A DNA stretch of 44,862 bases from the IMG/VR virus record IMGVR_UViG_3300025122_004783, positions 1 to 44,862 of that record; one strand, 5' to 3'. The stretch is from a virus. This document shows, piece by piece, positions 8,148 through 42,612 of this stretch. Numbering within the stretch: position 1 is the first letter of the stretch; every line of letters begins with the position of its first letter. Below the pieces are notes generated by a model, which made no database searches, was not told where the DNA came from, and saw only the letters and a list, made by a program, of their open reading frames with translations. The translations under genes and the position numbers were made by a program.

Positions 8148-9783
8148 TAGCTATCACTCTAAACTTAAAGGATTTATCTTGTTCGTTCCAGATGCTTAGC
8201 TCCGGATCGTAAAAGGCAAACTTGAGTGCATATTCATATCCGCCCTCAAGCATGCTCATATCTAAGTCAAAATAATTTCCAGATTTGTCAAAAGATAGTC
8301 CGGTACAGTTGTTGCTGCTTGTTCCATGTTCAATCGCCTCATAAGCATCTAGTGTTCTAATAACCCGATAAGATGCGCTCACTATTGATGTAGCCGGCAC
8401 ATTAGCATTAGCTTTTGTGTATATGGTTGGGCTCCAATTTTTATTTCTAACATATAGGTTAAAGCGCGCAGTTTCCTTTGTTGTGTATTTGTTTCTTAGG
8501 TTTGTTATATTGATAAAATATACAGGAGCACGAACGTGGCTAACTGATTCTTGAACTGAACCTGTCGTAATCGGTGTTATTGTCCCAGTAAAGTACTGTG
8601 TCGCAGAAGAAGTTACTTGATCGGTTGCTGTGCCGCTTCCTGTAAACCAAACATCGTATACGGTCATCACCGATGGGCTGCCTGTAAACGCAAAGGAAGC
8701 GGAATATATTCCAGTAGAAACAGCGCCCCCTGTTACAACTGTTGGATCTGCCGATCTAACATAGCCGCTATTGTCTGGAGACAACACCAATGCGGCGCCG
8801 GAAGGATATAAATTATCTGAACTCCCCGAAAATAGACTCACATAAACTCGATTATCTTCACCTAGGTCTGGGATATCTCTCAGGCGGCCGCGCACATAGT
8901 TATATAAATAAATTGTATTCATATTGTCTGCCGCAGGAGCAAGGGAACTACTATAGTAAAAGCTCCCTCTGTTATCTCTCTTGGTAGAATCCCAGCGCGC
9001 TTCAAGAAGCGGTCTTTTATAGTAGTATTGTGAGCTTCTTGCAAAAAACCTCTTAACATAATAATTGGAGGCGACACCGCCAGTAATATCAAGAGTATAT
9101 TCATCGGCCGTTGCTTGAGCAGATGCTATAGAATAATATGCCTCTTGAGAAGATGTAAGCATTATTCCAACGCCATTATTGCCTAAGTCGCCGGCCATCC
9201 AGTGTTCTACAATTCCGGTAATATCAATTTCCAAATTCTCAAGGCCGCTTTCAAAAAGCTGTTTATATGATGGGGGCACACCGCTAGCGTCCCACTGGTT
9301 GGATTGGGTAAGCCAATCGCCGCCAACATGAGTCCACTTGGCCAAGTTTGATGCAGACATCCAATTGGATCCAGTGTTACCGTTTGTTGAATCAGTATAG
9401 TTGGTGTCAAACATTGATATGCCTAAGCCCTCTTGCCAAGAACGCGATAGCGCAAATACAGATAGGGTAAACTGCTTGGGAACAGTTCTGGCGTGTGTCG
9501 AATTAAACATTCTTAAATAAAAGTTTACGCTTCCAGAGGCCGGAATAGTTCCGGCGGTTCGATCCGTAGAAACTGTAGTGATCGGAAACTTAATTAGGGC
9601 GCGTGATAATTCCTGAGAGCCTATGTCGTCTGAACTACTTAATGGATTACGGCCTGCTACAGAAAAGATCTCCAAAACATCCGACTGTCCCATGTTTGAG
9701 CCAGTAGCTCTTATTGTTAAACCCTCTTTAAAGGCGTTTGTAATAGTGTTGTCAGCACTACCGGTATATCTTTTTAAGCCCAT
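8137..9783 (-). CDS. Phage structural protein, baseplate region, DNRLRE-like features
   Basis: This 548-residue protein lies directly after the gp6-like wedge gene and shares one base with its stop (TAATG). It overlaps the next gene by 11 nt. The N-terminal half has long beta strands. One stretch, around residues 185-215, reads LEIDITGIVEHWMAGDLGNN followed by GVGIML, the kind of sequence seen in DNRLRE/disaggregatase-related extracellular beta domains. Before it come a NFYLRMF strand and a W-rich segment. The C-terminal half has Ig-like strand spacing and Ser/Thr-rich linkers. No catalytic motif is visible. By position it may correspond functionally to T4 gp7, gp8 or gp10 (wedge periphery), but I see no specific sequence match. 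Virion structural protein is secure; the exact role is not. Confidence 0.7.
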   Translation of the reverse strand: MGLKRYTGSADNTITNAFKEGLTIRATGSNMGQSDVLEIFSVAGRNPLSSSDDIGSQELSRALIKFPITTVSTDRTAGTIPASGSVNFYLRMFNSTHARTVPKQFTLSVFALSRSWQEGLGISMFDTNYTDSTNGNTGSNWMSASNLAKWTHVGGDWLTQSNQWDASGVPPSYKQLFESGLENLEIDITGIVEHWMAGDLGNNGVGIMLTSSQEAYYSIASAQATADEYTLDITGGVASNYYVKRFFARSSQYYYKRPLLEARWDSTKRDNRGSFYYSSSLAPAADNMNTIYLYNYVRGRLRDIPDLGEDNRVYVSLFSGSSDNLYPSGAALVLSPDNSGYVRSADPTVVTGGAVSTGIYSASFAFTGSPSVMTVYDVWFTGSGTATDQVTSSATQYFTGTITPITTGSVQESVSHVRAPVYFINITNLRNKYTTKETARFNLYVRNKNWSPTIYTKANANVPATSIVSASYRVIRTLDAYEAIEHGTSSNNCTGLSFDKSGNYFDLDMSMLEGGYEYALKFAFYDPELSIWNEQDKSFKFRVIANEY

Positions 9784-11579
9784 TACCTAACCTTCCCTAT
9801 AATGTCTACCTCTGGATATTTTAGCTCTAAGATTGCATTGTTCGGAACAACTATATATGATCCGTCAGCAGACAAATTATCGTTAATGTCAATTGCTGCG
9901 GAGGAGTAGTTCCCTGCCTGTTTGGCGACAACCTTAACCTTGGTAACATCTAAGACGCTGTTAACCCCTTTTAACACTTCATAAATTTGACTAATATATA
10001 GCGGCTCTCCAATAAAGAATGGCTGTGCATAGTGTTCTTGGAGCGCCGCTATACAATCATCTAGCGCTGTATATTTTTCGGCTGCCATTTTCGGTTTAAT
10101 GATAAATTCAATACCAAAGTTAAGAATATATGCATCCAGTATATCAACGGTATCGTTGATCATTCTATAATTATTTATCCAAGTTTTTAAATTATTTTTA
10201 ATTGTTGTATTTGCTGCAATCATTTTGCCGTTGGTATCTTCTGACACAACATACATATTTAAGTTTCTTTTTTGGGAATCGGCATCTCTTTGCACCGAGA
10301 CTCGCTTGATGGCGCCGAACTTAGCATGCATTCTATATGCTATGTTTTCATAATCGGCCTGCGTTACCGCCCTGTTCTGTGTGGGGAACGTATCGTAAAT
10401 TCTTTGTTTTACTTCGTTAGTTGACGGATACGTAACTGCTCCTACGATTTGCTCTTCGTTGGTGACTTCTAGTGATCCTATTACCGTATTAATAAGTGTG
10501 CTGCTCAGATTTTGTCGATTTGTAAAATCAAAGTTAGTGGCCGCTACAGAGTTTAAAGAACCGACTGCAAGATTCGTATTCATGGGATTGGTTGTTCTAA
10601 AGGTAATTGTTAAGGTGGTGTTCGTTGGAACAATTCCAAACGACTCATTTTGTGACAGTCTAGTTGGGTCAAATGATAAATCGGTTACGTATTTCTTACC
10701 GAAAACATTAATTGCTACATTTTGTGGATTAGCGACGATGTCAGATTCACCCAGTTTTCCACTTCCAAATTGAAGTGTAGCTTGATCTCTATTGTGTTCA
10801 ACAACATATTTTCTGGATACCAAAAATGGCTTTATAAGTGACGGAACATTATCGTTTTTAAAATTGGGGTTTGTTATTTCCTTAAAAACCATATCCTGGG
10901 CCAAATAGTCGACTTCAAAATATTGGTTTCCTTCCGAATCATATACAGAAATGATCTCTGAAACATTTGGGGTTGTGAGTGTCGTTCGATAAAATCTTTC
11001 AAATGAGCCAACCTCTACGGTTTCCTGAGAAAGTATTCCAGACACAACGTTGCCGTAAGCTTTCACAGCATAATGTGTTGGTGCACCTGTATCTGTATCA
11101 ACTCTTGCGGCAACAGTCAAATTTCTATTGTCTGCAAAATCAACATTTTCTGTCAAAATAAACTGCGTTCCCACTTCAGATGAAAAGGAGGTGCCTCTTT
11201 TCAATATCGGCAAATAGCTTGTATCGGTACCTATGCCGACACCTGACGCAGGAACAAGGATAAACAAAGCAACGGTACCATATATTGATTCTCGGCCGGT
11301 ATATTTGAAACCCAGAGCGCGGCCATGGCGCACGACATTGCCAAATTGAAACGCCGTATCTAGAAACGATTCATTAACATTATAGTCCAAATAGAACGAA
11401 AGCTGGTCGCCAACATAAGCTACAGCATCAAGCATTAATGCACCAAACGATGCTTCACTGAAATCTTGGAAAGTATCAGGATAAAACCTCTCCGCTATGT
11501 CCATTAAGTCATCACGAATTGTTTCAAATTCGCGATGAGTATAATCAATCGGCATTATTTTTTTCTGTTGTTTCGGCAT
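9783..11579 (-). CDS. Baseplate wedge protein, T4 gp6-like (baseplate J family)
   Basis: This is a 598-residue relative of T4 gp6 (about 660 residues), the dimeric wedge subunit that forms the inner ring of the contractile-tail baseplate. Evidence is the N-terminal block beginning YTHREFETIRDDLMDIAERF and continuing with FSEASFGALMLDAVAYVGDQ, typical of gp6/J-like wedge proteins. The block near residues 390-430 (QADYENIAYRMHAKFGAIKR) is the conserved C-terminal part of the family. It starts at an ATG preceded by a GAGGAA ribosome site and follows the gp25 gene by 16 nt. The gp25-gp6 order is the normal T4-like arrangement. No truncation is apparent. Confidence 0.88.
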   Translation of the reverse strand: MPKQQKKIMPIDYTHREFETIRDDLMDIAERFYPDTFQDFSEASFGALMLDAVAYVGDQLSFYLDYNVNESFLDTAFQFGNVVRHGRALGFKYTGRESIYGTVALFILVPASGVGIGTDTSYLPILKRGTSFSSEVGTQFILTENVDFADNRNLTVAARVDTDTGAPTHYAVKAYGNVVSGILSQETVEVGSFERFYRTTLTTPNVSEIISVYDSEGNQYFEVDYLAQDMVFKEITNPNFKNDNVPSLIKPFLVSRKYVVEHNRDQATLQFGSGKLGESDIVANPQNVAINVFGKKYVTDLSFDPTRLSQNESFGIVPTNTTLTITFRTTNPMNTNLAVGSLNSVAATNFDFTNRQNLSSTLINTVIGSLEVTNEEQIVGAVTYPSTNEVKQRIYDTFPTQNRAVTQADYENIAYRMHAKFGAIKRVSVQRDADSQKRNLNMYVVSEDTNGKMIAANTTIKNNLKTWINNYRMINDTVDILDAYILNFGIEFIIKPKMAAEKYTALDDCIAALQEHYAQPFFIGEPLYISQIYEVLKGVNSVLDVTKVKVVAKQAGNYSSAAIDINDNLSADGSYIVVPNNAILELKYPEVDIIGKVR

Positions 11580-11595
11580 TCAAAAATTCCTCACT

Positions 11596-11964
11596 TTAAA
11601 TAGTGAACTCTAACAAATCTCCAACATTTAGGGACGGAATAGAATACTCAATACTTATATGTAATGTATTAAGATCTATATCCTTAGTTACAAAATTAAT
11701 TTCTTTGATGGCAGCTACTGGCAAATATATAGATACTTGCTCCAGTATCTTTGCTTCAATGGTATTAAATGTAGCCTGATTAAAAGCTGAAAAAAGATAA
11801 GACCGTACACCAACACCAAAACTTGGCTCCATAACTCTTTCGCCAGGGTTAGTTAGCAAAAGCATCTTTAAGTTTTGCTTTATAAGTGTCCGAAAATCTT
11901 TAATCATGGTAAAACCATCGGCACTATCTCTGGTAATCGGCAATTTAACCGCCAATGAAGCCAT
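11596..11964 (-). CDS. Baseplate wedge subunit, gp25/GPW family
   Basis: This 122-residue protein is the gp25/gpW-like baseplate component that nucleates sheath assembly on the wedge. The diagnostic block is LLLTNPGERVMEPSFGVGVR followed by SYLF (residues about 36-60), the hallmark of the family. The C-terminal part is a beta-alpha fold ending LNVGDLLEFTI. Length is normal for the family (about 120-140). It sits between the 2347-residue structural gene and the gp6-like gene, 21 nt and 16 nt away, as expected in a T4-like tail operon. The start is the ATG at 11964, followed by ASLAVKLPITRDSADGF, a standard N-terminus. Confidence 0.92.
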   Translation of the reverse strand: MASLAVKLPITRDSADGFTMIKDFRTLIKQNLKMLLLTNPGERVMEPSFGVGVRSYLFSAFNQATFNTIEAKILEQVSIYLPVAAIKEINFVTKDIDLNTLHISIEYSIPSLNVGDLLEFTI

Positions 11965-20277: not shown

Positions 20278-21696
20278 TTATGTGCTTTTATATGTATTAT
20301 TTGGGATATCAAACCACCACTTCTTTCCACCTTCGAGGTCTTTACTAGATGCTAATTCTTTTGTTGCGACCGCGTTGCCAGCATCATCCACCCAATACCA
20401 ATTTTTTCCCACGCCCATATCATCATCATCATAGGTAGCCGTGGGGAGAGTCTCCGTGGTAGCAGCTTTATTAGTTATTATGGCATCGCCTGTCCAGCCT
20501 ATAACCGCAACGTTGTCTTTAAAATCTACCGGCCAATTTTTTGCGCCGGCCTTGTCGGCGCCGGCATTGGCTGTATATGTGTTGTTTTTATAGAAGTGTG
20601 CTTTACACTTTGCTAATTGAGTACCGTAGGCTTTCCTGTCTGCGGGAGTTTTTGCTGCCCAGTGTACAGGATCAGCATCGCTTCCATATCCTGTTAAATT
20701 TATATCGGCTGCAGCCGCAATTGGCTGAAGTTCGTTTGGTATGCAGTTATTAGCATATAGACATTTGGTGCCGTCTTGTTTGGTGAATGTAACGTCCATT
20801 GCAAATCCGTATTGGTGTTCTGAATAACATGGCGCAGCGGGCTTCATTCCTCCTAAACACTTGTATGTATACAAAACCCATTGATGTTTGGGACTACGAC
20901 GTACAGAGCCTATGCTTACTTTAAAGCCGGCATTTTTCGCTCTCTCTAAAAACCTATCAAATCTTGGTCTGGCTAAAGGATCCAGCAACGCGGTTCCCAA
21001 GCTCTTATTAAATCTAAAATATGAAGGTATATCTATAGTAACTTTCTGGCCGCCGGCTGGGCCCTTTGTTGAGCATTTACGCGCTGCAGCCATGGCGCCC
21101 CCAGAGCCAACTATTATTTGGGCCGCGGCGCTTGGGCCCGGGAGTCGCCCTGAAGGTGCTTCCCAACCCCCAAGCAGCCCAATAAGAGAAAAACACTCCG
21201 TGTCCGCGGCCGATGCGGGTTTTTCTTGGCTGGTGATGCTAAGAAATCTTCCATATTCAAGATTATACACACGATCCGTTTTGTCCAGTTCGACAAGCAC
21301 AATATCGCCACGTGATACAGGGTTGCCTTCAATAACATTTGTACTAAGAAATGTTGTGTGCATAGCAATTGTTCTATATGTTTGATTTTCGTCAGCAGCA
21401 GCAGACGGATCACATGGATCCGGCAAAAATGAATGAGGCGAATTCTCCCCTATAATACGACCCTTAAAAGCATATCTTATATTGGCACCTCCGGCGCCGC
21501 CGGTAGAACCACCATCAATAGCCATTGAACGATTAGCGGACAACGGAAACATGTCCGTCAAGGCGCGGGCTTTAAACATCGTCTTACCATTATAGGAGTC
21601 TTTTTGCATGGCTCTACGAAAAGATTTGCCAAACAAATCGATTGATCCCCCTTTTTCTGTAAACATTGTCCAATCGTATTTTTCTTTAATTGACAT
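20278..21696 (-). CDS. Tail-tip protein: shared N-domain plus M15/VanY-like peptidase
   Basis: This 472-residue protein has two parts. Residues 1 to about 190 are the domain shared with the next two upstream genes, with the signature block GRIIGENSPHSFLPDPCDP, then AMHTTFLS and SRGDIVLVEL. Residues about 225-400 form an M15-type zinc peptidase: SEHQYGFAMD near residues 291-301 supplies the S-x-H-x6-D zinc motif. DPVHW near 341-346 gives the acid and second His, arranged as in phage L-Ala-D-Glu or DD-peptidases. It would cleave peptide cross-links of peptidoglycan as the tail penetrates. The C-terminal 70 residues (YWVDDAGN, WWFDI) look like a small beta repeat. It lies 70 nt downstream of the lysozyme paralogue. 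The ribosome site before its ATG is weak. Confidence 0.82.
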   Translation of the reverse strand: MSIKEKYDWTMFTEKGGSIDLFGKSFRRAMQKDSYNGKTMFKARALTDMFPLSANRSMAIDGGSTGGAGGANIRYAFKGRIIGENSPHSFLPDPCDPSAAADENQTYRTIAMHTTFLSTNVIEGNPVSRGDIVLVELDKTDRVYNLEYGRFLSITSQEKPASAADTECFSLIGLLGGWEAPSGRLPGPSAAAQIIVGSGGAMAAARKCSTKGPAGGQKVTIDIPSYFRFNKSLGTALLDPLARPRFDRFLERAKNAGFKVSIGSVRRSPKHQWVLYTYKCLGGMKPAAPCYSEHQYGFAMDVTFTKQDGTKCLYANNCIPNELQPIAAAADINLTGYGSDADPVHWAAKTPADRKAYGTQLAKCKAHFYKNNTYTANAGADKAGAKNWPVDFKDNVAVIGWTGDAIITNKAATTETLPTATYDDDDMGVGKNWYWVDDAGNAVATKELASSKDLEGGKKWWFDIPNNTYKST

Positions 21697-21766
21697 ATAC
21701 TTAAATAGTTTTGCGTGTAAAAGGTCTTTTCATTATATAAAATTACACAGATTTTTCTGTAAATGA

Positions 21767-22978
21767 TTATCGAGAGGTGATGGCGGTGGCGGCACCAAAA
21801 ATCTCTTTTGCAAGTGCTCCGCGGGAACGACCCTTCTCATAGTAGTGGGTGGGGCGCTCAAATTTTACAGTTATAATATAGCCCGCAACGTAAGGATCAT
21901 CTTCAGTTTCCCAATTGGGAAATAATTGTTTCATCTTTTGTGCCATGAACCTAAATTGGGTATCTTCGCTTGTAATTGCTGCTTTTGCGCCGGCCTTATC
22001 TGTGACCGGATCGATGCCTAGGGCCTTCAGGATGCTACTTCCGCCGCCGCTCGTCGGACAAATATTCGTTTGCCAGTATGAAAATGAACAATCGCCATCC
22101 AAATTGCGCGCGCGGACCTCTTTTATTTTTTTCAATGAAATTCTCCCATCTGAGTGACCCTTTTCGTACCATTTTAAACTATCACCAGCAGCGGTGCGGC
22201 TAAAGTTGGATTCAGCTTGTGCGTTTGCAGTAATTCCTGCCAAAAGAGCATCACTAAATCCCGCAAAGTGAGGGCTATTTTTTAATTTAGTGAAAAATGC
22301 CGGGGCATTGCCAGACATCTTATAGGATTTTTGGACCGGTTGGCCGGCTTTAAAGGGTATGCAGCGTGCACAGGGTGCAGTCGTACCAAGAGTGCCGACG
22401 GCAGGGGCGACACCGGCGGAGGCGTATCCGCGGCGCAATCCGGGCGCGCCACCCCAGCCACCCATAAGACCCACGAGACTGCTACACGCGGTAGCGCCGG
22501 TCTTAGCCGGGTTTTCATGAGCGCTAATGCTTATGAACCTACCATATTCCAAATCATATGAAAAACCGCTTCTATCTATCTCTACAACAACAATATCCCC
22601 ACGTGTCACATTCTCACCTGAGTCGGCTGCGGTGCTTAAAAACGTCGTATGCATGGCAATTATTCTATATGTCGCGCTCTCATCGGCAGAAAATGCAGGA
22701 TCACAGGGATCTGGCAAAAATGAATGAGGTGAGTTCTCTCCAATTATTCTTGCTTTAAAAGCCCATCTTTTGCTACCGTCAACGTTTGTCGCGCCACCGT
22801 CGATTGCCATAGCGCTAATAGGAGTTAACTCAAACATATCGGTGATTGCCCGGGCTTTGAATCGTGTTTTAGCCATGTATGCATTACTAGACATACTAGT
22901 GCGCAATGTGTTTCCATAAATGTCGAGACTATCTAGATAGTCGCTAAACGTTGTCCAATCGTATTTTTCTCCTGACAT
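21767..22978 (-). CDS. Tail-tip protein: shared N-domain plus phage tail lysozyme
   Basis: This 403-residue protein starts with the shared domain (residues 1 to about 185: YDWTTFSDYLDSLDIYGNTL, GENSPHSFLPDPCDP, TRGDIVVVEID). A Gly/Ala/Pro linker leads to a C-terminal tail-lysozyme domain (about 220-400). That domain shows GITANAQAESNFS, with the likely catalytic Glu near residue 254. It also shows AAGDSLKWYEKG, a CSFSYWQTN substrate-cleft segment and a KFERP segment near the end. Tail lysozymes of this family hydrolyse the glycan strands of peptidoglycan during injection, the role of T4 gp5. It follows the phosphatase paralogue after 21 nt with an AGAGG site upstream. Assignment of the lysozyme domain is by motif layout, not a database match. 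Confidence 0.8.
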   Translation of the reverse strand: MSGEKYDWTTFSDYLDSLDIYGNTLRTSMSSNAYMAKTRFKARAITDMFELTPISAMAIDGGATNVDGSKRWAFKARIIGENSPHSFLPDPCDPAFSADESATYRIIAMHTTFLSTAADSGENVTRGDIVVVEIDRSGFSYDLEYGRFISISAHENPAKTGATACSSLVGLMGGWGGAPGLRRGYASAGVAPAVGTLGTTAPCARCIPFKAGQPVQKSYKMSGNAPAFFTKLKNSPHFAGFSDALLAGITANAQAESNFSRTAAGDSLKWYEKGHSDGRISLKKIKEVRARNLDGDCSFSYWQTNICPTSGGGSSILKALGIDPVTDKAGAKAAITSEDTQFRFMAQKMKQLFPNWETEDDPYVAGYIITVKFERPTHYYEKGRSRGALAKEIFGAATAITSR

Positions 22979-22999
22979 TACACTATCTACCTCTGTTTT

Positions 23000-24334
23000 T
23001 CACTCTCTAAACATCCAATCATATAATACCCAATTAACTCCACCGGTTGTGGCGCGCTTCACGGCATCGGCATCCTTGGGGCAGCTGCCCCCGTTAGCCG
23101 CTTTGACACTGTCCTTGCACCATTTAGCTGTAGATCTCCAGGCGCCACCTTGCTTCTTAGTATATGCAAATATTTCTGCCTTGCATTTATCTTTAGAATC
23201 TGCAGGGCACGCGGCGTCACCCGCTCCCCATTTATTAACGCGTTTCCATTTTGCGGCGATGGCGCCAGTTCGATCAACACCGTGCGCGCAATGAAAGTAG
23301 ACGTTGCCGCTGTTCAGATCGCTGTGGATTCGACTCCATTCTTCGGTGTTCGGGTGTCTGGAGCTATGCATAACCACTTGGTACCACTTCATGTCAAGCT
23401 CTTCGGCCCAATACGCTTCGCAAGGCTTGACACTGGCGTTTCTCTGGCCGCTAGCTTGAGTGCATTTAACGCCGCCGCACTGTTGGGCCGCGTCTACCGC
23501 TAAACTAATAACAATTCTGACTCCAAAGGTGTCACGCATTAACTGCATTTGTTGTTTGCTGGTTACTGTGGCGCCTCGATAATTTCCATTTCCCGGAGCG
23601 ATTTCCATAAAGTGATCCGGTGGTGCATTAGGATTAGCTTTACTTTGACAATTGCTGTTTTCACAGTAGCCTTTGCGATTTGATGGGCACGGAGGAATTG
23701 CTGTGCCTGGCACAAAAGGTGCTAAAGGTACCATTTTACCGTCCCAAGCAGCGCCGGCAGGTCCATCGCCTTGAAGGGAGCCAAGTGGTTTATTGGTTAT
23801 CTGACCAAACAAAGTAACCAAGGCCACACACTCGGCCATGGCGCCGGGGCTAGGATTTTCAACACTGACCAACTCTTCGAAGGTGCCATATTCGAGATTG
23901 TATGCTTGGCCGCTTCTCTGTAAATTGACTAAAACAATATCTCCTCTTGTTACGGGAGTTGATCCTTTCGCTGTTATTGCGCTCAAAAATGTGGTATGCA
24001 TTTCGATGATCCTCCATGTCTCAGACTCGTCTCCGGCCCACGTGGGATCACACGGATTCGGGAGAAAGGAGTGTGGAGAATTCTCCCCTATTATCCTTGC
24101 CTTAAAGGCTACCCGAGGCTCAGAGCCGCCGGTTGCACTAGTTGCTCCTCCATCGATTGCCATGGCTCTATTGGAGGGTAATTCAAATGAGTCTGAAAGG
24201 GCGCGGGCCTTAAAGGTGGTACTATCGCTATATTCCTCGGGAGCTAAACCCCACCGAATCATGTGCCCAAATAAACTTAATGTGCTGCTGCTTTCTGTAA
24301 ACGAGGTCCAGTCATATAATTCTTTATTGGCCAC
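23000..24334 (-). CDS. Tail-tip protein: shared N-domain plus tyrosine/dual-specificity phosphatase-fold domain
   Basis: This 444-residue protein starts with a GTG (GGAG site 9 nt upstream; 11-nt overlap with the preceding gene). Residues 1 to about 190 are the shared domain (GRIIGENSPHSFLPNPCDP, TRGDIVLVNL). After a linker with several cysteines, residues about 255-400 read as a cysteine phosphatase. There is a FGVRIVISLAVDA strand and then VYFHCAHGVDRTG, with nucleophile Cys349 and Arg355 in perfect C-x5-R spacing. The segment before it (MHSSRHPNTEEW) has no Asp at the usual general-acid position. Both the HCxHGxxRTG loop and the missing acid recall RNA 5'-triphosphatases of the capping-enzyme/PIR1/baculovirus type. 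The substrate is unknown: protein, nucleotide, RNA or phosphorylated cell-wall polymer. Phosphatase fold is secure; activity is inferred. Confidence 0.8.
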   Translation of the reverse strand: MANKELYDWTSFTESSSTLSLFGHMIRWGLAPEEYSDSTTFKARALSDSFELPSNRAMAIDGGATSATGGSEPRVAFKARIIGENSPHSFLPNPCDPTWAGDESETWRIIEMHTTFLSAITAKGSTPVTRGDIVLVNLQRSGQAYNLEYGTFEELVSVENPSPGAMAECVALVTLFGQITNKPLGSLQGDGPAGAAWDGKMVPLAPFVPGTAIPPCPSNRKGYCENSNCQSKANPNAPPDHFMEIAPGNGNYRGATVTSKQQMQLMRDTFGVRIVISLAVDAAQQCGGVKCTQASGQRNASVKPCEAYWAEELDMKWYQVVMHSSRHPNTEEWSRIHSDLNSGNVYFHCAHGVDRTGAIAAKWKRVNKWGAGDAACPADSKDKCKAEIFAYTKKQGGAWRSTAKWCKDSVKAANGGSCPKDADAVKRATTGGVNWVLYDWMFRE

Positions 24335-24632
24335 CTTCGTGTTCTCCGGGAACCTGAATTAAATCAAAAAGCTGATTTTTATCTTCTTCCGAAAGCTCGA
24401 TGGATACGTTTTGATTTTTTTGTTGTATTGATATCAGCTTTACCAGTTGCTCATTTGAACGTTGCATCGTTTCAACATGCTTTGCGGCGACTGGACTTAA
24501 GCTTCTGTTTTGGTCTGCATCCATGGCGATTTGGTTAGCAATCTCATTCAAAAATTCTTGTGCAGATTTTCTATCGTTTCGTATATTTTCTAAAGCTTCA
24601 TCAATTAAACCATTTAAACTATTCTTACTCAT
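24324..24632 (-). CDS. Small helical phage protein, unknown function
   Basis: This 102-residue protein is acidic, Gln/Asn-rich and almost entirely helical, with heptad-like hydrophobic spacing in residues 30-80, so a coiled coil is likely. I chose the ATG at 24632: it gives an ATGA overlap with the sigma-factor stop and has a GGAG site 5 nt upstream. An ATG 18 nt earlier lacks these. It overlaps the phosphatase-carrier gene by 11 nt, so it is probably co-translated with the tail-tip genes. It could be a chaperone or a minor structural protein. No family recognised. Confidence 0.65.
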   Translation of the reverse strand: MSKNSLNGLIDEALENIRNDRKSAQEFLNEIANQIAMDADQNRSLSPVAAKHVETMQRSNEQLVKLISIQQKNQNVSIELSEEDKNQLFDLIQVPGEHEGGQ

Positions 24633-25339
24633 AAAGCTCCGTTTTCCCAATTTTGTCTAAAGAATGAATATTTCTTTCGAAATTTCTTAAGAGAATTTAC
24701 AATCTGTTTTGTATTCAGGCCTGTAATCTCTCTCAGGTATAGGTAAATAGCCTTCTTATTGAAAATCTCAATGTCCTCTTTCGATTCAAAAAGAACAAGA
24801 ATCGCCTTGTATACTCTTAAATCGTTTTCTTTCATCTGAGATACGTCCCAAGATTTTATTTCCTCGTAAAACCGATTCCAAAACTCTTCTTCCTCTCTGT
24901 TGGATACATATGATTCGGTTGTTGATAGGTATTCTTCTTCATATGATTTAGAGATGTTGTCATAATCGATCTCGCGTCGATTTCTCTTTTGCTGTTTCTT
25001 AACTTTATGAATAAACCAGTTCTTTGTAATCACCGAAAAATATGAAAACGCCTTGGAACCTTTCGTAGGGTCGAACTTGTCTAAAACAGTCATTAGCCAT
25101 ATTTTACATTCATCGCGCAAATAATCAATGTTTGGCAAATTCGTAAATTTATATGTAAAAACAATTTTATCAACCATTTCATTAAAAGCCGGCTGTATCC
25201 AGTTAATGTATAACTCTGTTCTTTCACGCTTGCAATTTGTTTTACAATAACGAATTATTGCGTTTTCATGGTCTTTCGTAAAATAATGATTTTTTTTACG
25301 CCTCTTTACTGGCGTTGGTTTCCGTTTCAGTATTGTCAA
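24629..25339 (-). CDS. Late-gene sigma factor, T4 gp55-like
   Basis: This 236-residue protein resembles the T4-like late sigma factor gp55, which directs host RNA polymerase to late promoters with the sliding-clamp co-activator. Residues about 70-125 carry the region-2-like block DECKIWLMTVLDKFDPTKGS, then KAFSYFSVITKNWFIHKVKK and a basic run with REIDYDN. The C-terminal helices end KKFRKKYSFFRQNWENGAL. It is longer than T4 gp55 (185). The N-terminus is strongly basic (KRKPTPVKRRKK). The only start in frame is TTG at 25339, giving a 44-nt overlap with the upstream gene; a GGAAG-type site precedes it. It sits immediately before the tail-tip genes, which it would be expected to activate. Confidence 0.78.
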   Translation of the reverse strand: MTILKRKPTPVKRRKKNHYFTKDHENAIIRYCKTNCKRERTELYINWIQPAFNEMVDKIVFTYKFTNLPNIDYLRDECKIWLMTVLDKFDPTKGSKAFSYFSVITKNWFIHKVKKQQKRNRREIDYDNISKSYEEEYLSTTESYVSNREEEEFWNRFYEEIKSWDVSQMKENDLRVYKAILVLFESKEDIEIFNKKAIYLYLREITGLNTKQIVNSLKKFRKKYSFFRQNWENGAL

Positions 25340-26106: not shown

Positions 26107-26322
26107 TTATTTATGCTCTGTAAATAAGACTAAGTTTCTTTCTTCAAAGAAAGCTGAATCTCTATGTTTGTTTTTGTATATATGGTAGGACGTGTAATTC
26201 TGATCACACCCTTCAAGCGAGAACTCTTTTGCGCCGAGAATGATTCCGTAACCAGCGTCACTCACAAGGCCGTCGCTATACTCTGAATACCATTTCACTA
26301 AATCGCCTATCTTAAACTTCAT
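26107..26322 (-). CDS. Hypothetical small SH3-like phage protein
   Basis: This 71-residue protein begins [20 protein letters not shown], then GYGIILG and a [11 protein letters not shown] strand. The pattern K-x-G-D-L-V-x-W followed by alternating strands suggests a small SH3-like barrel, a shape common among short phage proteins of unknown function. It overlaps the 3' end of the GDP-mannose dehydratase gene by 11 nt, so it is translated with that operon although it looks like ordinary phage accessory content. Confidence 0.62.
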
Positions 26323-27289
26323 TTCTTATTGCCTTTAGATCTTCATTATACATCATTTTGGCCAATTCTTTAAATTTCACTTTTGGCTCCCAACCTAGCT
26401 TTTCTTTTGCTTTTGAGGGATCTCCCAAAAGAAGCGGGACTTCGTGTGGCCTAAATAGTCGCTCATCAATTTCAACGTGATCTTCTACATTTAAGCCAGC
26501 ATATGTAAACACTTCCTCTAAAAATTCTCTTACAGTGTGTGTCTCACCCGTAGCTATTACATAGTCATCTGGAGTCTCTTGCTGCAACATGAGCCACATG
26601 ACTTCCACATAGTCGCCGGCAAAGCCCCAGTCTCTTTTTGCATCCAGATTCCCAAGGTATAACTTATCTTGTAAGCCCAAGTTAATCTTAGCTGCAGCCT
26701 GTGTAATCTTGCGTGTTACAAACGTTTCGCCGCGGCGGGGTGACTCGTGGTTAAAAAGGATCCCACTAGAAATATGCATATCGTAGCTTTCGCGGTAATT
26801 TCTGCATACGTTGTGGGCGAACACCTTTGAACATGCGTATGGGCTTGCCGGCATCAAACGCGTTGTTTCGCTTTGTGGGTGGGTCGGGTTGTCTCCAAAC
26901 ATTTCTGATGACGATGCTTGATATACCTTGGTATTCGGACAAATGTTTCTAACTGCTTCTAACAGCTTTAAGGTGCCCATAGCAACAATATCGGCTGTTT
27001 CTTCTGGGGTTTCGAAAGAAACTCTGACGTGTGACTGGGCAGCCAAATTATAAATTTCATCTGGTTCGTGTTCAAGCAACAACCTATATATCGCTCCGGA
27101 ATCAGTCATGTTACCATAACAAAGCTCAAAGTTTGGGTGGCTAAATATGTGGTCGATCCTGCCGGTGGATATTGTGGACGTCCTTCTTTTGACTCCTACA
27201 ACTTTATATCCTTTTTCTAATAATAGTTCGGCCAAATAAGAGCCGTCTTGTCCAGTTACCCCTGTAACTAACGCTGTTTTATTCGCCAT
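26312..27289 (-). CDS. gmd: GDP-mannose 4,6-dehydratase
   Basis: This 325-residue short-chain dehydrogenase converts GDP-D-mannose to GDP-4-keto-6-deoxy-D-mannose. The NAD(P) loop [19 protein letters not shown] is the family signature near the N-terminus. VKRRTST and ARIDHIF-like text, the ASSSEMFG motif, the YACSK catalytic Y-x3-K, and [20 protein letters not shown] are all diagnostic of Gmd. I placed the start at 27289 ([10 protein letters not shown]): an upstream in-frame ATG at 27364 would add residues unlike the family, whereas 27289 has an AGAGG site. It overlaps the fucose-synthase gene by 11 nt. Together the two make GDP-L-fucose. Slightly short for the family (about 340-370) but complete. 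Confidence 0.95.
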
Positions 27290-28190
27290 TGATGCCTCTG
27301 TTTTCTTCGTACCATTCGTATGCCTTTTTAACACCCTCAGCAAACGGGGTAAATTCAAAATCACCGATCAGGTTTAACAAATATTCATTGCTGCCGTCTT
27401 TTCTAAATTGGCCGGCCAACTTATCATTAAACCTTATTTGAACGTCTTTATCAAGTTGCTCTCTTAATATATTGATCATTTCTAATATCGAAAAGTTTTC
27501 GTGCGGGCTAACAATTACAGGGACGGCGCTATGATGCTTCTCTAGTAATATTGGAATTATTTTTGCCAGATCATCCACATATATTTCTTGTCTTAATGCC
27601 TTACCTGTTCCCCAAAATTCTAAAACATCTCTGTCGGATGCCTCATAAAACTTTCTAATCAGCGCAGGGACAAAATGTGAACTATCGTAATCAAAGTTGT
27701 CCTCGGGCCCGTAAATATTAGATGGACAAAATGTTGAGTAATCTAGCCCATATTGTTTTCTATACGAATCTATTTGAATATACAAAGAACGCTTAGAGTA
27801 GCCATAGGAAAGGTTGGTCTTTTCCGGCGGACCAGATAAAATATCCTTTTCGGTCAATGGATACTCTTTCGCCACGTTTGGAAACGTGCACGTACTTAAA
27901 GCAGCCAATATTCTTTTGACACCATGAAGGTATCCTTGGTGAACAACATTTGTGTTGATCATTGTATTCAAATAATGAAACTCTGCTGGCCTTGAATTGT
28001 TTGCCTTAATTCCGCCAACTTTGCCGGCCATATGTATAACGGCATCGGGCTGTAACTCTTGATACATTCTTTTGCAGTCTTCGGTTGAAACCAGATCATA
28101 ATCTTTTGATGACAGATATATCCAGTCTGGCTTTATCTTTGCTAGCCTCTTGCCAACAAAACCGGTACCGCCCGTGACAACAACTTTCAT
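27279..28190 (-). CDS. fcl: GDP-L-fucose synthase (epimerase/reductase)
   Basis: This 303-residue protein carries out the 3,5-epimerisation and NADPH reduction of GDP-4-keto-6-deoxymannose to GDP-L-fucose. Evidence includes the [10 protein letters not shown] cofactor loop, the family-specific [19 protein letters not shown] block, the CTFP motif and the YGYSKR catalytic Y-x3-K. It also includes [13 protein letters not shown] and the [10 protein letters not shown] helix with [17 protein letters not shown]. Length is normal. An ATGA overlap with the upstream C-methyltransferase gene and an 11-nt overlap with gmd place all three on one message. Confidence 0.93.
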
Positions 28191-29470
28191 AATTTTGTCT
28201 CTCCATCTTTATGAACGACATGTGGATACGGCATCGGAAAAAGCAGTTTGCCACCATTTAAAATGTATTCTTTTTCTCTGGCTACAATCTCGCTTTTAAA
28301 ATACCATGGTAAAACAAGCATATAGCTGGGGTTTAGTTCTCGGGCGTGTTCTTCTGAGATTAACTCTATGTCGGTGCCGAGGGTTTTTAGGCCAACTTTT
28401 TCAGGGTTACGCTCACTTATGTATGGAATGGTTTCTTTTCCAATTCCAAATAATTGCAAAAGCATGTTTCCCTTCGTTGAAGCGCCTAGGCCGAGAACAG
28501 TGTTCCCGTTTTTAAGTTCAACACCGATGGTGTTCTTAATTTTGTTTTTTAAGCTTAAAATCTCTTCGTGAAAATCGATGTATGTTTCCTTATCAAATAG
28601 ATTCATTTGCTTTTCAATATCTATTAGTTCTTTAAAGCTGTCAGTCTTTTCAATTTTGCGGTCAAGATGTGTGATCATAACACGGACGCTTCCTCCATTA
28701 ACATCATTTTCAGCAGCATCAAAAATTTCTAACCCATTTTGTTTCATTAGGTAATTCAATGTATGCAGAGAATAATACTCCAAATGCTCATTACAAATAT
28801 CGTAAAAGTTTATATTCTTCAACATTAAGGGCAAGTAACTTAACTGAATACACCATACCCCCTCTTCATGGAGCAGCGACTTAACATCAGCTACAAAACT
28901 GTTTGGATCATCTAGGTCATAAAACATCGCACAAGAAGTGAAAATCTTAACTTTCTTATCTTTTAGTGTATCATTTAATACATCTTGTGAAAAATAGTTA
29001 TTAACAATTTTAATGCTTGGGTCCACACCCTCCCAAGAAATGTTTTGGGCTGGCTCGACCCCGATCCGTTTTAAACCGGACGGAAAATATCCAATCATCG
29101 TACAATCGTTTGCACCAATATCAACCACAATATCGTTGTCTTCTAAGTGTACTCTTTCTACAACATCGTCAACAACATTTTTCAAATCTTTGCGCATCGT
29201 ATCACTCACAGAAGAGCGATAAAAATATTCACGATACAAGTAATCAGGCTCTACAGTTTCCTTAAGTTGCAACAAGCCGCAGGCCTCTACATTGTTGCTT
29301 CTATCGCAGAGTACAAGGGTTTGTGGTACTCGTATGTCCGCTAAAGGGTTATTTTCATTGGTCTCAACAAATGTGGGTGATAAGTGTTGTTCTTCAATGC
29401 TTACCACCTCTGTCAAATCCGCTGAACCACACACTCTACAGTGTTGAATATTCTTGTGCACTTTTGTCAT
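28187..29470 (-). CDS. SAM-dependent sugar C-methyltransferase (NDP-hexose type)
   Basis: This 427-residue protein has the three-part layout of NDP-hexose C-methyltransferases such as TylC3. It has an N-terminal zinc domain (CRVCGSADL, later CDRSNNVEACG) and a Rossmann SAM domain with intact motif I VVDIGANDCTMIGYFPSGLK followed by RIGVEP (residues about 110-140). It also has a C-terminal domain with TVLGLGASTKGNMLLQLFGI. These enzymes methylate a carbon of a 4-keto-6-deoxy sugar bound to a nucleotide. In this operon it precedes the GDP-fucose genes, so the substrate could be GDP-linked, or dTDP/CDP-linked from the RmlB/RfbH branch. The position methylated cannot be read from sequence. Confidence 0.85.
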   Translation of the reverse strand: MTKVHKNIQHCRVCGSADLTEVVSIEEQHLSPTFVETNENNPLADIRVPQTLVLCDRSNNVEACGLLQLKETVEPDYLYREYFYRSSVSDTMRKDLKNVVDDVVERVHLEDNDIVVDIGANDCTMIGYFPSGLKRIGVEPAQNISWEGVDPSIKIVNNYFSQDVLNDTLKDKKVKIFTSCAMFYDLDDPNSFVADVKSLLHEEGVWCIQLSYLPLMLKNINFYDICNEHLEYYSLHTLNYLMKQNGLEIFDAAENDVNGGSVRVMITHLDRKIEKTDSFKELIDIEKQMNLFDKETYIDFHEEILSLKNKIKNTIGVELKNGNTVLGLGASTKGNMLLQLFGIGKETIPYISERNPEKVGLKTLGTDIELISEEHARELNPSYMLVLPWYFKSEIVAREKEYILNGGKLLFPMPYPHVVHKDGETKL

Positions 29471-29487
29471 TTACTCACCTTACAAAT

Positions 29488-30654
29488 TTATATAATAAAC
29501 GGTTTTTCAAAAAATTCTCCAGTGTTGCATGTTTCTTTAAAAAACTTTTTAGTCTCACGATTGAACTTATAATATATGTAAGAATTTACCGATTCCATCA
29601 CAGTGAGATCGTCCTTGCTGGCCTCAAGAAGGCCCGAGCCATAATGCCAAACTTTTATTTGTACATTCTGGTCATTATACAACTTTTGATCGACTATTTT
29701 AAATTTCTTTATAGAATCACAATTGCAAATTTCAAAGTCTGGATCATCATATTGATCGCGCACCATGGCTTGAAGCGACCGCTGATCCCAGCTTTTTTTA
29801 CTCCTTACATTATATAAAACAGGTTCGCTTCCTTCTCTGCCGTAGAGTTCTGGAAGCGCGATACGATAGTTCATCAAACTTTCATAACCGTATAAAGCCG
29901 CTTTTTCTCTGTCCTTGTCAACTACGCCAAACCAGCCGGCAATACCTAAACTTAACAAAACATTTAAAGCGCCCTGTTCGTTATAACACGCCCCACACTC
30001 TAGACCAAGGTTTTCCATGTGTTTATGGTCTTCCATATATCTAAAATAAAAGTCATGAAGATCTTGTAAACATTTTGAATTATTAAAACAAACTACATCC
30101 GTATTACAATGTGTGTACTCGGCTGTTGTATATTCAAGCCCCTCTTCATCTAGGGTTTTTCTAATACTATTGATATGATCAAAAAATACACGCCTCTTTT
30201 CATTTGTCAAGGTCACAACAACAGGGGTATGCAGGCCACATACCGGATGTCCTGAAAGAGGTTCTTTTGTTTCAACATCACGAGCCACAAGACCAATTGA
30301 TAGTTGATAGGGTTCGTCTAAAGTCAAAATAGCGTCATCTATGTTATTATCTATGAACTCTGTAAGAGGCGCACAGGTAATTGTGTCAGCGCCTAACATA
30401 ATGATCTTGTCATATTTGTGCTTTTTCATTAGTTCTAAGGCGGCGGCCCATCGAAAGATCTCGTGGCGCCCTTTATATTTTTTGTCAAACTCTTTTGAAA
30501 TTTCAAGTGTATCAAGATTTTCGTTTGTAATATGGTGTAAATTAATATTTGGATGAAATGCTTTGAAACTGCTGCAAGCTGTTTTTGATATGGTTCCATA
30601 TCTATCCAGGCCGCACGCATATATCATGCATCCAATATTTACATTATTTTTCAT
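29488..30654 (-). CDS. Glycosyltransferase, GT8/glycogenin-like, with altered DxD
   Basis: This 388-residue protein begins NIGCMIYACGLDRYG and contains KYDKIIMLGADTITCAPLTE (residues about 80-100), the place where GT8 enzymes have an LDAD-type DxD metal site. The first Asp is replaced by Gly. Downstream are CNTDVVCFNN, YNEQGALNVLL (a Q/D-containing acceptor loop typical of GT8/GT-A enzymes) and KVWHYGSG, matching the C-terminal His that binds the nucleotide. It is likely cytosolic, as no membrane segment is visible. The donor sugar is unknown. It has a strong AAGGAG site. The gene may be partly degenerate given the DxD change. Confidence 0.7.
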   Translation of the reverse strand: MKNNVNIGCMIYACGLDRYGTISKTACSSFKAFHPNINLHHITNENLDTLEISKEFDKKYKGRHEIFRWAAALELMKKHKYDKIIMLGADTITCAPLTEFIDNNIDDAILTLDEPYQLSIGLVARDVETKEPLSGHPVCGLHTPVVVTLTNEKRRVFFDHINSIRKTLDEEGLEYTTAEYTHCNTDVVCFNNSKCLQDLHDFYFRYMEDHKHMENLGLECGACYNEQGALNVLLSLGIAGWFGVVDKDREKAALYGYESLMNYRIALPELYGREGSEPVLYNVRSKKSWDQRSLQAMVRDQYDDPDFEICNCDSIKKFKIVDQKLYNDQNVQIKVWHYGSGLLEASKDDLTVMESVNSYIYYKFNRETKKFFKETCNTGEFFEKPFII

Positions 30655-30727
30655 TTATTCTCCTTAATTTAACATATGGTAATGGCTTACGCACCTGTAT
30701 TGCCGGTGTTATATCCTCTTTTACCAC
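30644..30727 (-). CDS. Candidate 27-residue microprotein between two sugar genes
   Basis: The 66-nt gap between the RmlB-like and GT8-like genes is spanned by a frame beginning at GTG 30727, 8 nt after an AAGGAG site located inside the end of the RmlB-like gene. It encodes MVKEDITPAIQVRKPLPYVK plus 7 residues and stops at 30644, overlapping the start of the glycosyltransferase gene by 11 nt. Tight coupling on both sides matches the rest of the operon. The peptide is basic, with no membrane segment. It may be real, a coupling leader or chance. Confidence 0.35.
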   Translation of the reverse strand: MVKEDITPAIQVRKPLPYVKLRRINEK

Positions 30728-31671
30728 GTAAAGTTCTCCTTATAGTGATCCACTATTTCTTCTATTTCTTCATCAAACAGCTTCTTTGGTTGCCAGCCAA
30801 GATTTTTCAATTTCCTATCATTCAAGGCATATCTTACATCTTGCCCCTCTCTTTGTGTAGTAAAGTTTATATACTGCTCCCATCCATCGAGGGTACCATA
30901 GAAGGCTTTAATGATTTTTTTCACCGTATCAATATTGGTTTGTTCAAAGCCGCCAGCCACATTATAAATTTCATTCACTTTTCCAGATTCAATTATTGTC
31001 ATAACTGCATCGGCCGTGTCAGAAGCGTGTAACCAGTTGCGAATGGGAGTCCCATTATCATGCAGTCTAATTTTCTTACCTCGCATTAAGTTTTTTATAG
31101 AAAGAGGAATTAGTTTTTCTGGGTATTGTCCTATACCATAATTGTTTGTGGGACGTAACATAATATATTCAATTCCATATGTCCTGCTCCAGGCCTTAAT
31201 CAACATATCAGATGATGCTTTAGAGGCAGAATAAGGATTGCTAGGTTTGAGCAAGTCGGTTTCTACATGCGCGCCTGTGGCAGTATCTCCATATACTTCG
31301 TCGGTGCTAATGTGAAAAAACACAGGAAGATCGTTGCAATTTATCGGCTTGAATCTAATGAGGTCTAATACATTTTTAACACCCAAGATATTACTATTAA
31401 TGAATTCATCACTATTAATAATGCTGTTTCCTACATGAGATTCTGCCGCATAGTTGATCACGTAATCACAATCGTTGAGAAACTTTAAATTCTTAATGTC
31501 TCTTTTTATAAATCTAAAATTTTTATACTTATTAAACTCATCCAATAAAGCCGGGTTTGCAGCATATGTGATTTTGTCAACTCCATAAACATGCCACCCA
31601 CGCTCTAAGGCCTTTCGGGTTGCATACGACCCCATAAAGCCGAGACAACCTGTGATATATACTATCTTCAT
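30721..31671 (-). CDS. rmlB: Nucleotide-glucose 4,6-dehydratase, RmlB-like
   Basis: This 316-residue NAD-dependent dehydratase makes the NDP-4-keto-6-deoxy-glucose intermediate. Family marks are the TGCLGFMGSYATRKALERGW cofactor loop, NYAAESHVGNSI, ISTDEVYGD (active-site Thr-Asp-Glu), NPYSASKASSD (Y-x3-K), NNYGIGQYPEKLIPL and IRNWLHASD. These match dTDP-glucose 4,6-dehydratases better than CDP-glucose 4,6-dehydratases, so the carrier nucleotide is most likely dTDP but not certain. The ATG at 31671 follows the stop of the 3-dehydrase gene by one base and gives the standard N-terminus. An ATG 24 nt upstream would overlap and add atypical residues. No RmlA or RfbF-type nucleotidyltransferase is in the window. 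Confidence 0.88.
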   Translation of the reverse strand: MKIVYITGCLGFMGSYATRKALERGWHVYGVDKITYAANPALLDEFNKYKNFRFIKRDIKNLKFLNDCDYVINYAAESHVGNSIINSDEFINSNILGVKNVLDLIRFKPINCNDLPVFFHISTDEVYGDTATGAHVETDLLKPSNPYSASKASSDMLIKAWSRTYGIEYIMLRPTNNYGIGQYPEKLIPLSIKNLMRGKKIRLHDNGTPIRNWLHASDTADAVMTIIESGKVNEIYNVAGGFEQTNIDTVKKIIKAFYGTLDGWEQYINFTTQREGQDVRYALNDRKLKNLGWQPKKLFDEEIEEIVDHYKENFTW

Positions 31672-31672
31672 T

Positions 31673-33013
31673 TCACACTCTTGCGAAAAATTCATTCACT
31701 GTTTTTTCTATATACTTTAGTTTTTCTTCAGTTAGGCCAATATACGTTCCCAAAAAGAATGAGTTAGTTGTCACCAACTGAGCATTGGGGAAGGTCTTGT
31801 TCATATCTCCATATTCGGCTGCCATATGAACATAGCCAGGATGCGCAAGAATATTGCCGGAGAAATAAGAACGCGTTTGAATCTTCGCAGCCTCTAAGTG
31901 GTTCACGATATCAAAACGTGAGAATGGAGCATCTTCCTTAATTGTCAGCAAAAATGCGAACCAACAGGGGTCAGCGTGTTCCGTTGCGACGGGCATGTGA
32001 AAGTATTGCTCATAAGGCGCAAATATGGCCCCTAGCTTGGCCCAGTTCTCTCTACGGGCGGTATCTAGCATTGGAAGCTTCTCAAGCTGCTGTAGGCCCA
32101 TTGCAGCCTGCAAATCAAGGGGTTTTAAATTGTACCCGATTTCGTCAAAAACATATCGATGGTCATAGACCGCTTCGGGGTGTCCTGGGAGCCAGTTCTT
32201 GAACCTCATACCGCATGCAGTGCCGCCGGTAACATTTCCTGGCTTCATAGAGTTACAGTAACACGCGCGTCCCCAGTCACGCATACTCGCGAGAATAGTT
32301 CTTGTCTTCTGGCTATTGGTCGCGACAAAGCCGCCTTCGCCCATAGTCATGTGGTGAGCAGGAAAGAACGAGCATGTTGATAAATCCCCATAAGAGCCAA
32401 GTTTCTTACCATTATAGGTCGAGCCCAAAGCGTCGCATGCATCCTCTAGAAAAACCAAATCATACTTTTCAACCAGAGACATCAGTCTATCCATATCTGG
32501 AGGATTTCCTAACACATGGGCAAACATGATGCCCTTAATATCTGGATCGTTCTTTAAAGCCTCTTCAACCTTGTCTAAGTCCAAGTTGACGCTAGGCAAC
32601 TCCACATCAACAAAGACTGGTACCAAATTGTGTTGTATGAGTGGGTTGATCGTAGTGGGAAAACAGACAACCGGGGTGATAACCTTGTCGCCGTCTTTAA
32701 GTTGCTTATTAAACCTGCGGGATTTTGCGGCCGCCACCATTAAAAGATTGGCTGAACTACCAGAGTTGGTTAGTGAGCCATAGAGCTTCCCCAGCTTCGA
32801 GGGAAATAGATCCTCAAAACGACTGGCATTCTTTCCAAAAATCATCCAGCCGTCAAGCAGCTGCTTGACGGCGGCGAGATATTCTTTTTCGTCAAATATG
32901 GGCCCCGAGTAAGAGACCCAATCTTCGCCGGGAATCCATTTGTTTTCTAATTCTTGCTTTTCATGAACATAATTCTTTACCAAATGTAAAATTTCTTCTA
33001 GTTGTTCATTCAT
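31673..33013 (-). CDS. rfbH: RfbH/E1-type NDP-4-keto-6-deoxyglucose 3-dehydrase, [2Fe-2S], PMP-dependent
   Basis: This 446-residue protein is the E1 enzyme that removes the 3-hydroxyl on the way to 3,6-dideoxy sugars. It belongs to the DegT/DnrJ/EryC1 aminotransferase fold, but the PLP-binding Lys is replaced by His in SFFPAHHMTMGEGG (His220/His221), the hallmark of the dehydrase. Cysteines at CSFF (Cys214), then RACYCNSM and TACGMRF reproduce the C-x-n-C-x-C-x-n-C [2Fe-2S] motif of E1. A reductase partner (E3, ferredoxin-like) is not in the window. I chose the ATG at 33013 because AGAGGA lies 5 nt upstream; an ATG 30 nt earlier lies inside the -10 region of the promoter. Complete, normal length. 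Confidence 0.93.
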   Translation of the reverse strand: MNEQLEEILHLVKNYVHEKQELENKWIPGEDWVSYSGPIFDEKEYLAAVKQLLDGWMIFGKNASRFEDLFPSKLGKLYGSLTNSGSSANLLMVAAAKSRRFNKQLKDGDKVITPVVCFPTTINPLIQHNLVPVFVDVELPSVNLDLDKVEEALKNDPDIKGIMFAHVLGNPPDMDRLMSLVEKYDLVFLEDACDALGSTYNGKKLGSYGDLSTCSFFPAHHMTMGEGGFVATNSQKTRTILASMRDWGRACYCNSMKPGNVTGGTACGMRFKNWLPGHPEAVYDHRYVFDEIGYNLKPLDLQAAMGLQQLEKLPMLDTARRENWAKLGAIFAPYEQYFHMPVATEHADPCWFAFLLTIKEDAPFSRFDIVNHLEAAKIQTRSYFSGNILAHPGYVHMAAEYGDMNKTFPNAQLVTTNSFFLGTYIGLTEEKLKYIEKTVNEFFARV

Positions 33014-33038
33014 ATATTCCTCTATACGCAGTATCCCT

Positions 33039-33067
33039 AACATAACACATATTTAGTCTTACGTCAA
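33039..33067 (-). promoter_or_regulatory. Sigma70-type promoter driving the RfbH operon
   Basis: In the 63-nt gap between the second A-type carrier gene and rfbH, the minus strand has -35 TTGACG (33067-33062), exactly 17 nt, then -10 TATGTT (33044-33039). About 26 nt later comes the ATG at 33013. Five of six and four of six bases match the consensus. This is a host-type promoter, not a T4 late TATAAATA element. It would separate transcription of the RfbH sugar block from the Fe-S genes upstream. Confidence 0.65.
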
Positions 33068-33076
33068 CAAATATTT

Positions 33077-33403
33077 TTAAATTGCAAACGATTCACCACA
33101 GCTGCAAGATCTTTTAGCAGCCGGGTTGTTAAATCGAAATCCTGATTCCATCAGTGTGCTAACATAGTCTATTTCCGACCCATTTAAAAACAAATATGAT
33201 TTCTTATCAATGCATATTTTAATATCGCCAAATTCAAATACCTTATCTGCGGAAGATGGCTCTTTTACCAAGTCATAGTGATAAGAAAAACCTGAACACC
33301 CTCCAGATTTTACACCGATTCTGAAATAATAGTCAGGGGCCTGTCTTTTGGCTTTAATGGAGCTGATCTTGCGGATAGCACCATCAGTCATTGTTATCGA
33401 CAT
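33077..33403 (-). CDS. A-type Fe-S carrier protein (IscA/ErpA/SufA family), copy 2
   Basis: This 108-residue protein has the three conserved cysteines of A-type carriers: Cys36 in SGGCSG and Cys100/Cys102 in SCSCG near the C-terminus. These accept and pass on [2Fe-2S] or [4Fe-4S] clusters. I chose the ATG at 33403, which has a GGAGAGAG site and the usual N-terminus; a longer frame to 33526 lies within iscU. It overlaps iscU by 20 nt and is the last gene before the RfbH promoter. It differs strongly from the other A-type copy at 33780-34133, so the two are not a recent duplication. Confidence 0.9.
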   Translation of the reverse strand: MSITMTDGAIRKISSIKAKRQAPDYYFRIGVKSGGCSGFSYHYDLVKEPSSADKVFEFGDIKICIDKKSYLFLNGSEIDYVSTLMESGFRFNNPAAKRSCSCGESFAI

Positions 33404-33776: not shown

Positions 33777-33779
33777 CCG

Positions 33780-34133: not shown

Positions 34134-34135
34134 GA

Positions 34136-35500: not shown

Positions 35501-35518
35501 TGTTCTTTTTTTGCTCCT

Positions 35519-36407: not shown

Positions 36408-36414
36408 ATTATTC

Positions 36415-38453: not shown

Positions 38454-38460
38454 TTTTATC

Positions 38461-42586: not shown

Positions 42587-42612
42587 TGTTTCCCTCTTGT
42601 GATATTATTAAT

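Follow-up and report, generated by a model that had tools for sequence, protein, structure and literature searches.

In the textbook view, the hub of a phage tail is a homotrimer that carries a single lysozyme. In T4, the trimeric tail lysozyme gp5 of the hub is present in three copies per tail and adjoins gp27, and contraction drives it into the periplasm (PMC3004832). In Anabaena phage A-1(L), the homotrimeric hub protein gp15 combines an active endoglucanase and peptidase with a lysozyme-like domain in one chain (PMC10966104). Outside phages, VgrG1-3 of V. cholerae, two of which bear C-terminal effectors, were reported to be mutually required as a heterotrimer, while a later study of an Aeromonas type VI secretion system (T6SS) attributed the heterotrimer requirement to effector loading rather than hetero-assembly (PMC8668125), and VgrG1 and VgrG2 of another T6SS do not mix (PMC8668125, PMC4924876). 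Neither a phage hub heterotrimer, nor a three-paralogue tail-tip carrier set, nor a tail-borne phosphatase was found in the open-access literature, as anticipated by an earlier sequence-only reading of the locus described here, which knew of no such set with a phosphatase among its payloads.

Here, we describe three neighboring genes in a 44.9-kb IMG/VR virus record (hereafter the window, that is, the whole stretch of 44,862 nucleotides analyzed), the source of which is an uncultured T4-like phage. We propose, with about even confidence, that these genes encode three dedicated versions of a tail-tip carrier at the site of T4 gp5, most likely assembled as a heterotrimer with several enzymes per tip.

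Organization of the carrier locus

The three consecutive carrier genes encode proteins of 444 aa (slot 1, 23000..24334), 403 aa (slot 2, 21767..22978), and 472 aa (slot 3, 20278..21696), and they lie on the minus strand together with all of the conserved neighbors given below. Each begins with an N-domain of ∼180 residues, located at 23801..24334 (residues about 1 to 178) in slot 1, 22451..22978 in slot 2, and 21163..21696 in slot 3. Pairwise BLASTP of the N-terminal 190 to 220 residues gave 48 to 55% identity (E values of 4e-58 to 6e-72), with 56 to 63% DNA identity across the same region, while the C-terminal parts were mutually unrelated and no further N-domain copy was found in the window record. 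These results agree in coordinates, lengths, and homology with the sequence-only reading, and by sequence the three genes are paralogues in their N-domains.

Upstream, the set is bounded by a gene for a conserved 108-aa protein (24324..24650), preceded by a conserved gp55-like late sigma factor (24629..25339; phrog_234, E value of 3.8e-6). Directly downstream are a 388-aa protein (P4, 19041..20207), single copy in every case, a conserved 2347-aa protein (P5, 11986..19029), the baseplate wedge protein gp25 (11596..11964), and a gp6-like baseplate wedge protein (9783..11579). P5 belongs to no curated family, though it is conserved in related contigs, and is one of two giant structural-looking proteins encoded on the minus strand of the window, the other being >2715 aa in length (3-8147).

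Two other gene sets were noted on the minus strand of the window. An Fe-S cluster set (33077-34133) comprises a NifU_N/IscU scaffold (E value of 3.8e-51) between two A-type carriers (E values of 8e-20 and 1.5e-17) and adjoins a radical SAM gene (34136-35500). A sugar-pathway island (26312-43391) contains epimerases, a DegT aminotransferase, a NeuB-type synthase fused to a cupin, a TPP enzyme, glycosyltransferase-like genes, two radical SAM genes, and an FKBP isomerase, and possibly serves cell-surface sugar remodeling.

Payload enzymes

The payload names proposed from sequence alone (a C-x5-R phosphatase, a tail lysozyme, and an M15 peptidase) proved right on the basis of Pfam, fold, and motif evidence. 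The slot-2 payload (residues 239 to 394, 21797..22264) was assigned to Phage_lysozyme2 (PF18013) with 32.5 bits against a cut-off of 28.2. The slot-3 payload (residues 238 to 308, 20773..20985) matched VanY in Pfam with an E value of 2.5e-5 and 24.5 bits, just below the cut-off of 25, and the M15 motifs S-x-H-x2-G-x3-D (SEHQYGFAMD) and H-x-H/VHW (zinc motif, here VHW) were readable.

For the slot-1 payload, the Pfam matches (PTP-NADK, E value of 4.6e-5, and Y_phosphatase3) were weak and below the cut-offs, as were the PDB sequence matches in strength (capping-enzyme triphosphatase, E value of 0.0065; TpbA, 0.014). The predicted structure of residues 233 to 444 (23003..23638), compared by VIA, matched Siw14 (6byf) with a Z score of 13.0 and an rmsd of 2.7 over 137 aligned residues, followed by the plant phosphatase PFA-DSP1 (Z score of 12.7) and by PTPMT1, SsoPTP, and TpbA. 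The P-loop HCAHGVDRTG (C349 and R355; 23264..23293) recurs as HC(A/T)HG(V/A)DRTG in five homologous phosphatase payloads, those of the window and of the related contigs L007, L008, L009, and L012. Within the model, the assignment of slot 1 as a dual-specificity phosphatase fold with a C-x5-R P-loop is therefore confirmed. Judging from motifs that read as intact, all three payloads look catalytic.

TpbA is a periplasmic phosphatase, so that periplasmic action of a slot-1-type phosphatase domain is possible. The enzyme could dephosphorylate an envelope component or a host target once delivered, neither of which is favored.

None of the carriers matched Gp5_C in Pfam, and they have no C-terminal beta-helix of their own, the C terminus being formed by the payload or by a short tail. 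A short tryptophan-rich tail of this kind was observed behind different enzymes in the window (20278-20500), L007, L008, L011, and L012. In addition, the C-terminal 400 aa of the last L012 carrier (L012:2302-4107) include a hydrophobic helical segment and resemble no recognizable enzyme family, the only match being FlgN (E value of 0.0075).

Relatives, conserved gene order, and copy number

A profile search with the N-domain alone, which the earlier reading had expected to bring up other payloads, retrieved 21 related viral contigs (designated by L numbers), and M23 and muramidase-like enzymes were indeed among their payloads. Two more scans with diverged N-domain subsets added no new contigs, and GTDB genome contigs gave no N-domain match. 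Moreover, tblastn of the slot-1 and slot-2 carriers and of the 388-aa and 2347-aa proteins against 50,697 phage records returned no match, while distant carriers matched these records only through their M23 or muramidase payloads and, with their N-domains alone, not at all. Among predicted viral structures, BFVD entry A0A1B1IUT8 (440 aa) matched the whole slot-1 model (E value of 4e-15), and two entries with close accessions, A0A1B1IUR3 and A0A1B1IUR4 (456 and 472 aa), matched it more weakly; these three unnamed proteins may come from a public genome that already contains such a set.

The block order, namely late sigma factor, 108-aa protein, carrier(s), 388-aa protein, protein of ∼2,100 to 2,350 aa, gp25, and gp6, is kept in the window and in every relative whose contig reaches far enough. 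Copy numbers were counted where both edges of the carrier set were visible, L021 and L027 being cut. The majority, ten or so lineages (L013 to L020 and L023 to L026), have one carrier, and four lineages (the window, L007, L008/L009, and L011) have exactly three; a set of four was seen nowhere. Chimeric assembly as an origin of the three-gene order was ruled out by its recurrence in these four diverged lineages. In L012, two complete carriers follow a truncated gene, the end of which encodes a weakly lysozyme-like domain (E value of 0.085), so that the count is probably three. In L022, where the end of the 108-aa gene lies just upstream, the set consists of two genes, one for an M15 carrier and one for a 222-aa copy that lacks a payload, indicating that three is not obligatory outside the clade of the window. 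The payload-free L022 copy (L022:148-813) is a possible structural-only subunit.

This distribution bears on whether the carriers are virion proteins at all. They could instead be enzymes of late lysis or host manipulation, united by a common interaction domain and located in the baseplate operon by chance, and M15, M23, and lysozyme payloads are endolysin types too. We consider this highly improbable, as the genes keep a constant place between the late sigma factor and the baseplate genes, the N-domain is conserved in all of them, and the slot-2 payload belongs to the Pfam family of phage tail lysozymes.

The shared N-domain

The sequence-only reading had further compared the N-domain with that of T4 gp5. 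No such relation was detectable at the sequence level, where hhalign of the N-domain profile against T4 gp5, P2 gpV, and Mu gp45 returned probabilities of 0.1 to 0.2%. Among 27 N-domains, no Pfam match to Gp5_OB or Phage_base_V was obtained, and Pfam, PHROGs, and PDB contained no sequence relative of the domain. Identity with gp53 was rejected as well (hhalign probability of 0.3%). In the whole-chain AlphaFold model of slot 1, the mean pLDDT was 63.6, with higher values within the two domains, and the N-domain, modeled with five main strands, reached a pLDDT of mostly about 75 to 90 from residue 41 on. Since the lists from VIA-align and Foldseek with the whole slot-1 chain were filled by phosphatase relatives, they were silent on the N-domain; among the weak viral structure matches of the whole chain were a few OB-type proteins (SSB and S1-like), with aligned ranges not given, which is compatible with an OB barrel but no proof of one.

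The missing link to gp5 in sequence and the missing beta-helix would fit carriers that are virion enzymes docked away from the central hub, for example, at a sixfold site holding two copies per carrier, or on the 388-aa or the 2347-aa protein, with a copy number untied to a trimer. Such docking is judged unlikely, considering that the genes are placed just before the gp25/gp6 block, that the layout of N-domain plus hydrolase is that of gp5, and that no other gp5-like gene was found in seven contigs. In the same seven contigs, one of which is 194 kb long with a T4-type capsid gene, no relatives of gp27, Gp5_OB, or Phage_base_V were detected, which is weak evidence as these families are diverged. 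The 388-aa protein might serve as a spike of its own or as a partner in docking. Its model was unreliable (mean pLDDT of 47), and its identification with the gp5 beta-helix was rejected (hhalign probability of 0.1%).

Slot orthology and payload swapping

Phylogenetic analysis of P5 grouped L012 and the triple clade together, with the single-copy contig L026 as their sister (100/100) and the remaining single-copy phages outside, indicating that one copy is probably ancestral and that one to three is the likely direction of change. In the N-domain tree of the triple clade, slot 1 was recovered with support of 100/99, while the clades of slot 2 (62/79) and slot 3 (70/67) were weakly supported, which counts against our proposal, as do the undetectable sequence relation to gp5, gpV, and gp45, the two copies in L022, and the effector-loading explanation given for a T6SS (PMC8668125). 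All three slot labels required only 2 changes on this tree, the lowest number possible, and none of 200 shuffles was as low. In a smaller N-domain tree, slot 1 was again recovered (99/98), and slot 3 was not recovered, yet not rejected either (p-AU of 0.41). N-domain identity was 52 to 72% within a slot versus 48 to 64% between the slots of one genome. Because the N-domains sort by slot, the triplication is older than the split of the four triple-carrier lineages.

The two L012 copies were mutual sisters (100/100), and their placement in any of the slot clades tested was rejected (p-AU of 0.0003 to 0.0012), reflecting either an independent expansion or homogenization by gene conversion. The L022 copies were also sisters on the N-domain tree, so carrier expansion probably occurred more than once.

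All-against-all BLASTP of the C-terminal parts revealed that the payloads do not follow the slots. The M15 payload in slot 1 of L011 matched the slot-3 M15 payloads of the window (40% identity, 4.6e-61) and of L007 (1.0e-48), and the phosphatase of the L012 middle gene matched that in slot 1 of L008 (1.0e-47). The slot-2 payload of L007 matched the payload of L021 (1.4e-43), that of L008 matched those of L026 (4.4e-24) and L019, and M23 payloads occurred in L011 slot 2, L018, and L023. A recent swap was observed between L018:9992-11197 and L019:9992-11341, the N-domains of which are closely similar while the enzymes differ. Pfam identified M23 in L018, and the L019 enzyme is muramidase-like, as judged by its similarity to that of L026. 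The slot-conserved N-domains and swapped payloads point to the N-domain as a fixed docking module and to the enzyme as a replaceable tool. The sequence-only reading had suggested just such a duplicated docking-type domain with interchangeable enzymes, and the fixed place by gp25 and gp6 also accords with it.

That reading left two assemblies side by side, a heterotrimer and alternative carriers. In the latter, the N-domains would be interchangeable, and homotrimers or random mixtures would form, a population-level bet hedging on host wall chemistry. Across the 12 N-domain copies of the triple clade, 44 positions are invariant and a single strict slot-specific position was found; together with the 48 to 64% identity within a genome, the invariant positions make a common docking surface plausible. 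This similarity and the existence of two-copy L022 would suit alternative or random loading. Such loading predicts loss, gain, and mixing, however, whereas four lineages retain exactly three carriers that are orthologous slot by slot, above all in slot 1. We thus regard it as improbable, and the heterotrimer is the part of the earlier suggestion that was strengthened, both by these four lineages and by single-copy relatives at the same place.

Proposed model and significance

In the heterotrimer that we prefer, the N-domain would dock each carrier at the baseplate center, the place filled by gp5 in T4, and the C-terminal enzyme would reach the cell envelope upon sheath contraction. A single ancestral gene may have supplied every subunit of what was probably a threefold site. 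In the clade of the window, this gene would have triplicated, each copy specializing for one position, after which the enzymes would have diversified and been swapped between positions. Each virion would then deliver, presumably at 1:1:1 stoichiometry, a phosphatase, an enzyme cutting glycans, and one cutting peptides, versus three copies of one lysozyme, and the phosphatase might act on phosphate of the envelope or host. A lone gene for a presumed threefold site in most lineages, and in one clade a set of exactly three genes, each specific to its slot, are the trace expected of a transition from homotrimer to heterotrimer. The stricter version, in which the tail hub is an obligate heterotrimer of slot-specific paralogues including a protein-type phosphatase, derived from a single-gene homotrimer by at least one triplication and perhaps, in view of the L012 copies, by two, is more tentative, and we put it somewhat short of even.

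If this is correct, the cell-puncturing tip of a phage has lost its symmetry and become a three-slot tool holder. As extant single-copy relatives would show the starting state, the step from homo- to hetero-oligomer would become testable in a small system. The carriers would also provide a natural modular scaffold for enzyme delivery and raise the question of which role a phosphatase plays as infection begins.

Comparison with known systems

Among phosphatases, the slot-1 payload resembles the PFA-DSP/Siw14, PTPMT1, and TpbA types in fold (Z scores of 10 to 13) and in the C-x5-R loop, and differs from them in its weak sequence matches and its fusion to a phage tail-type carrier. Similar to gp15 of A-1(L), several wall-degrading domains would be gathered at one hub, provided that the carriers are hub proteins; unlike gp15, the carriers distribute their enzymes over three paralogues, with a single enzyme on each chain. 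By the sequence features tested, the carriers do not belong to the gp5 or VgrG families. Compared with T4 gp5, a homotrimer (PMC3004832), the window has three paralogues, each bearing an enzyme unrelated to the other two, and the carriers have neither sequence similarity to gp5 nor a same-chain beta-helix. They share with gp5 the placement of a wall hydrolase (Phage_lysozyme2, VanY, or M23) behind an N-terminal domain, a gene near gp6, and, in most members of the family, one gene per genome. Evolved VgrG sets belong to a secretion system rather than a phage baseplate, and no Phage_base_V/VgrG signal was found in the carriers by Pfam or genome search. These sets are nevertheless the closest working analogue of the carriers, as both consist of paralogues that combine a common N-terminal part with different C-terminal effectors and that are proposed to assemble with one another.
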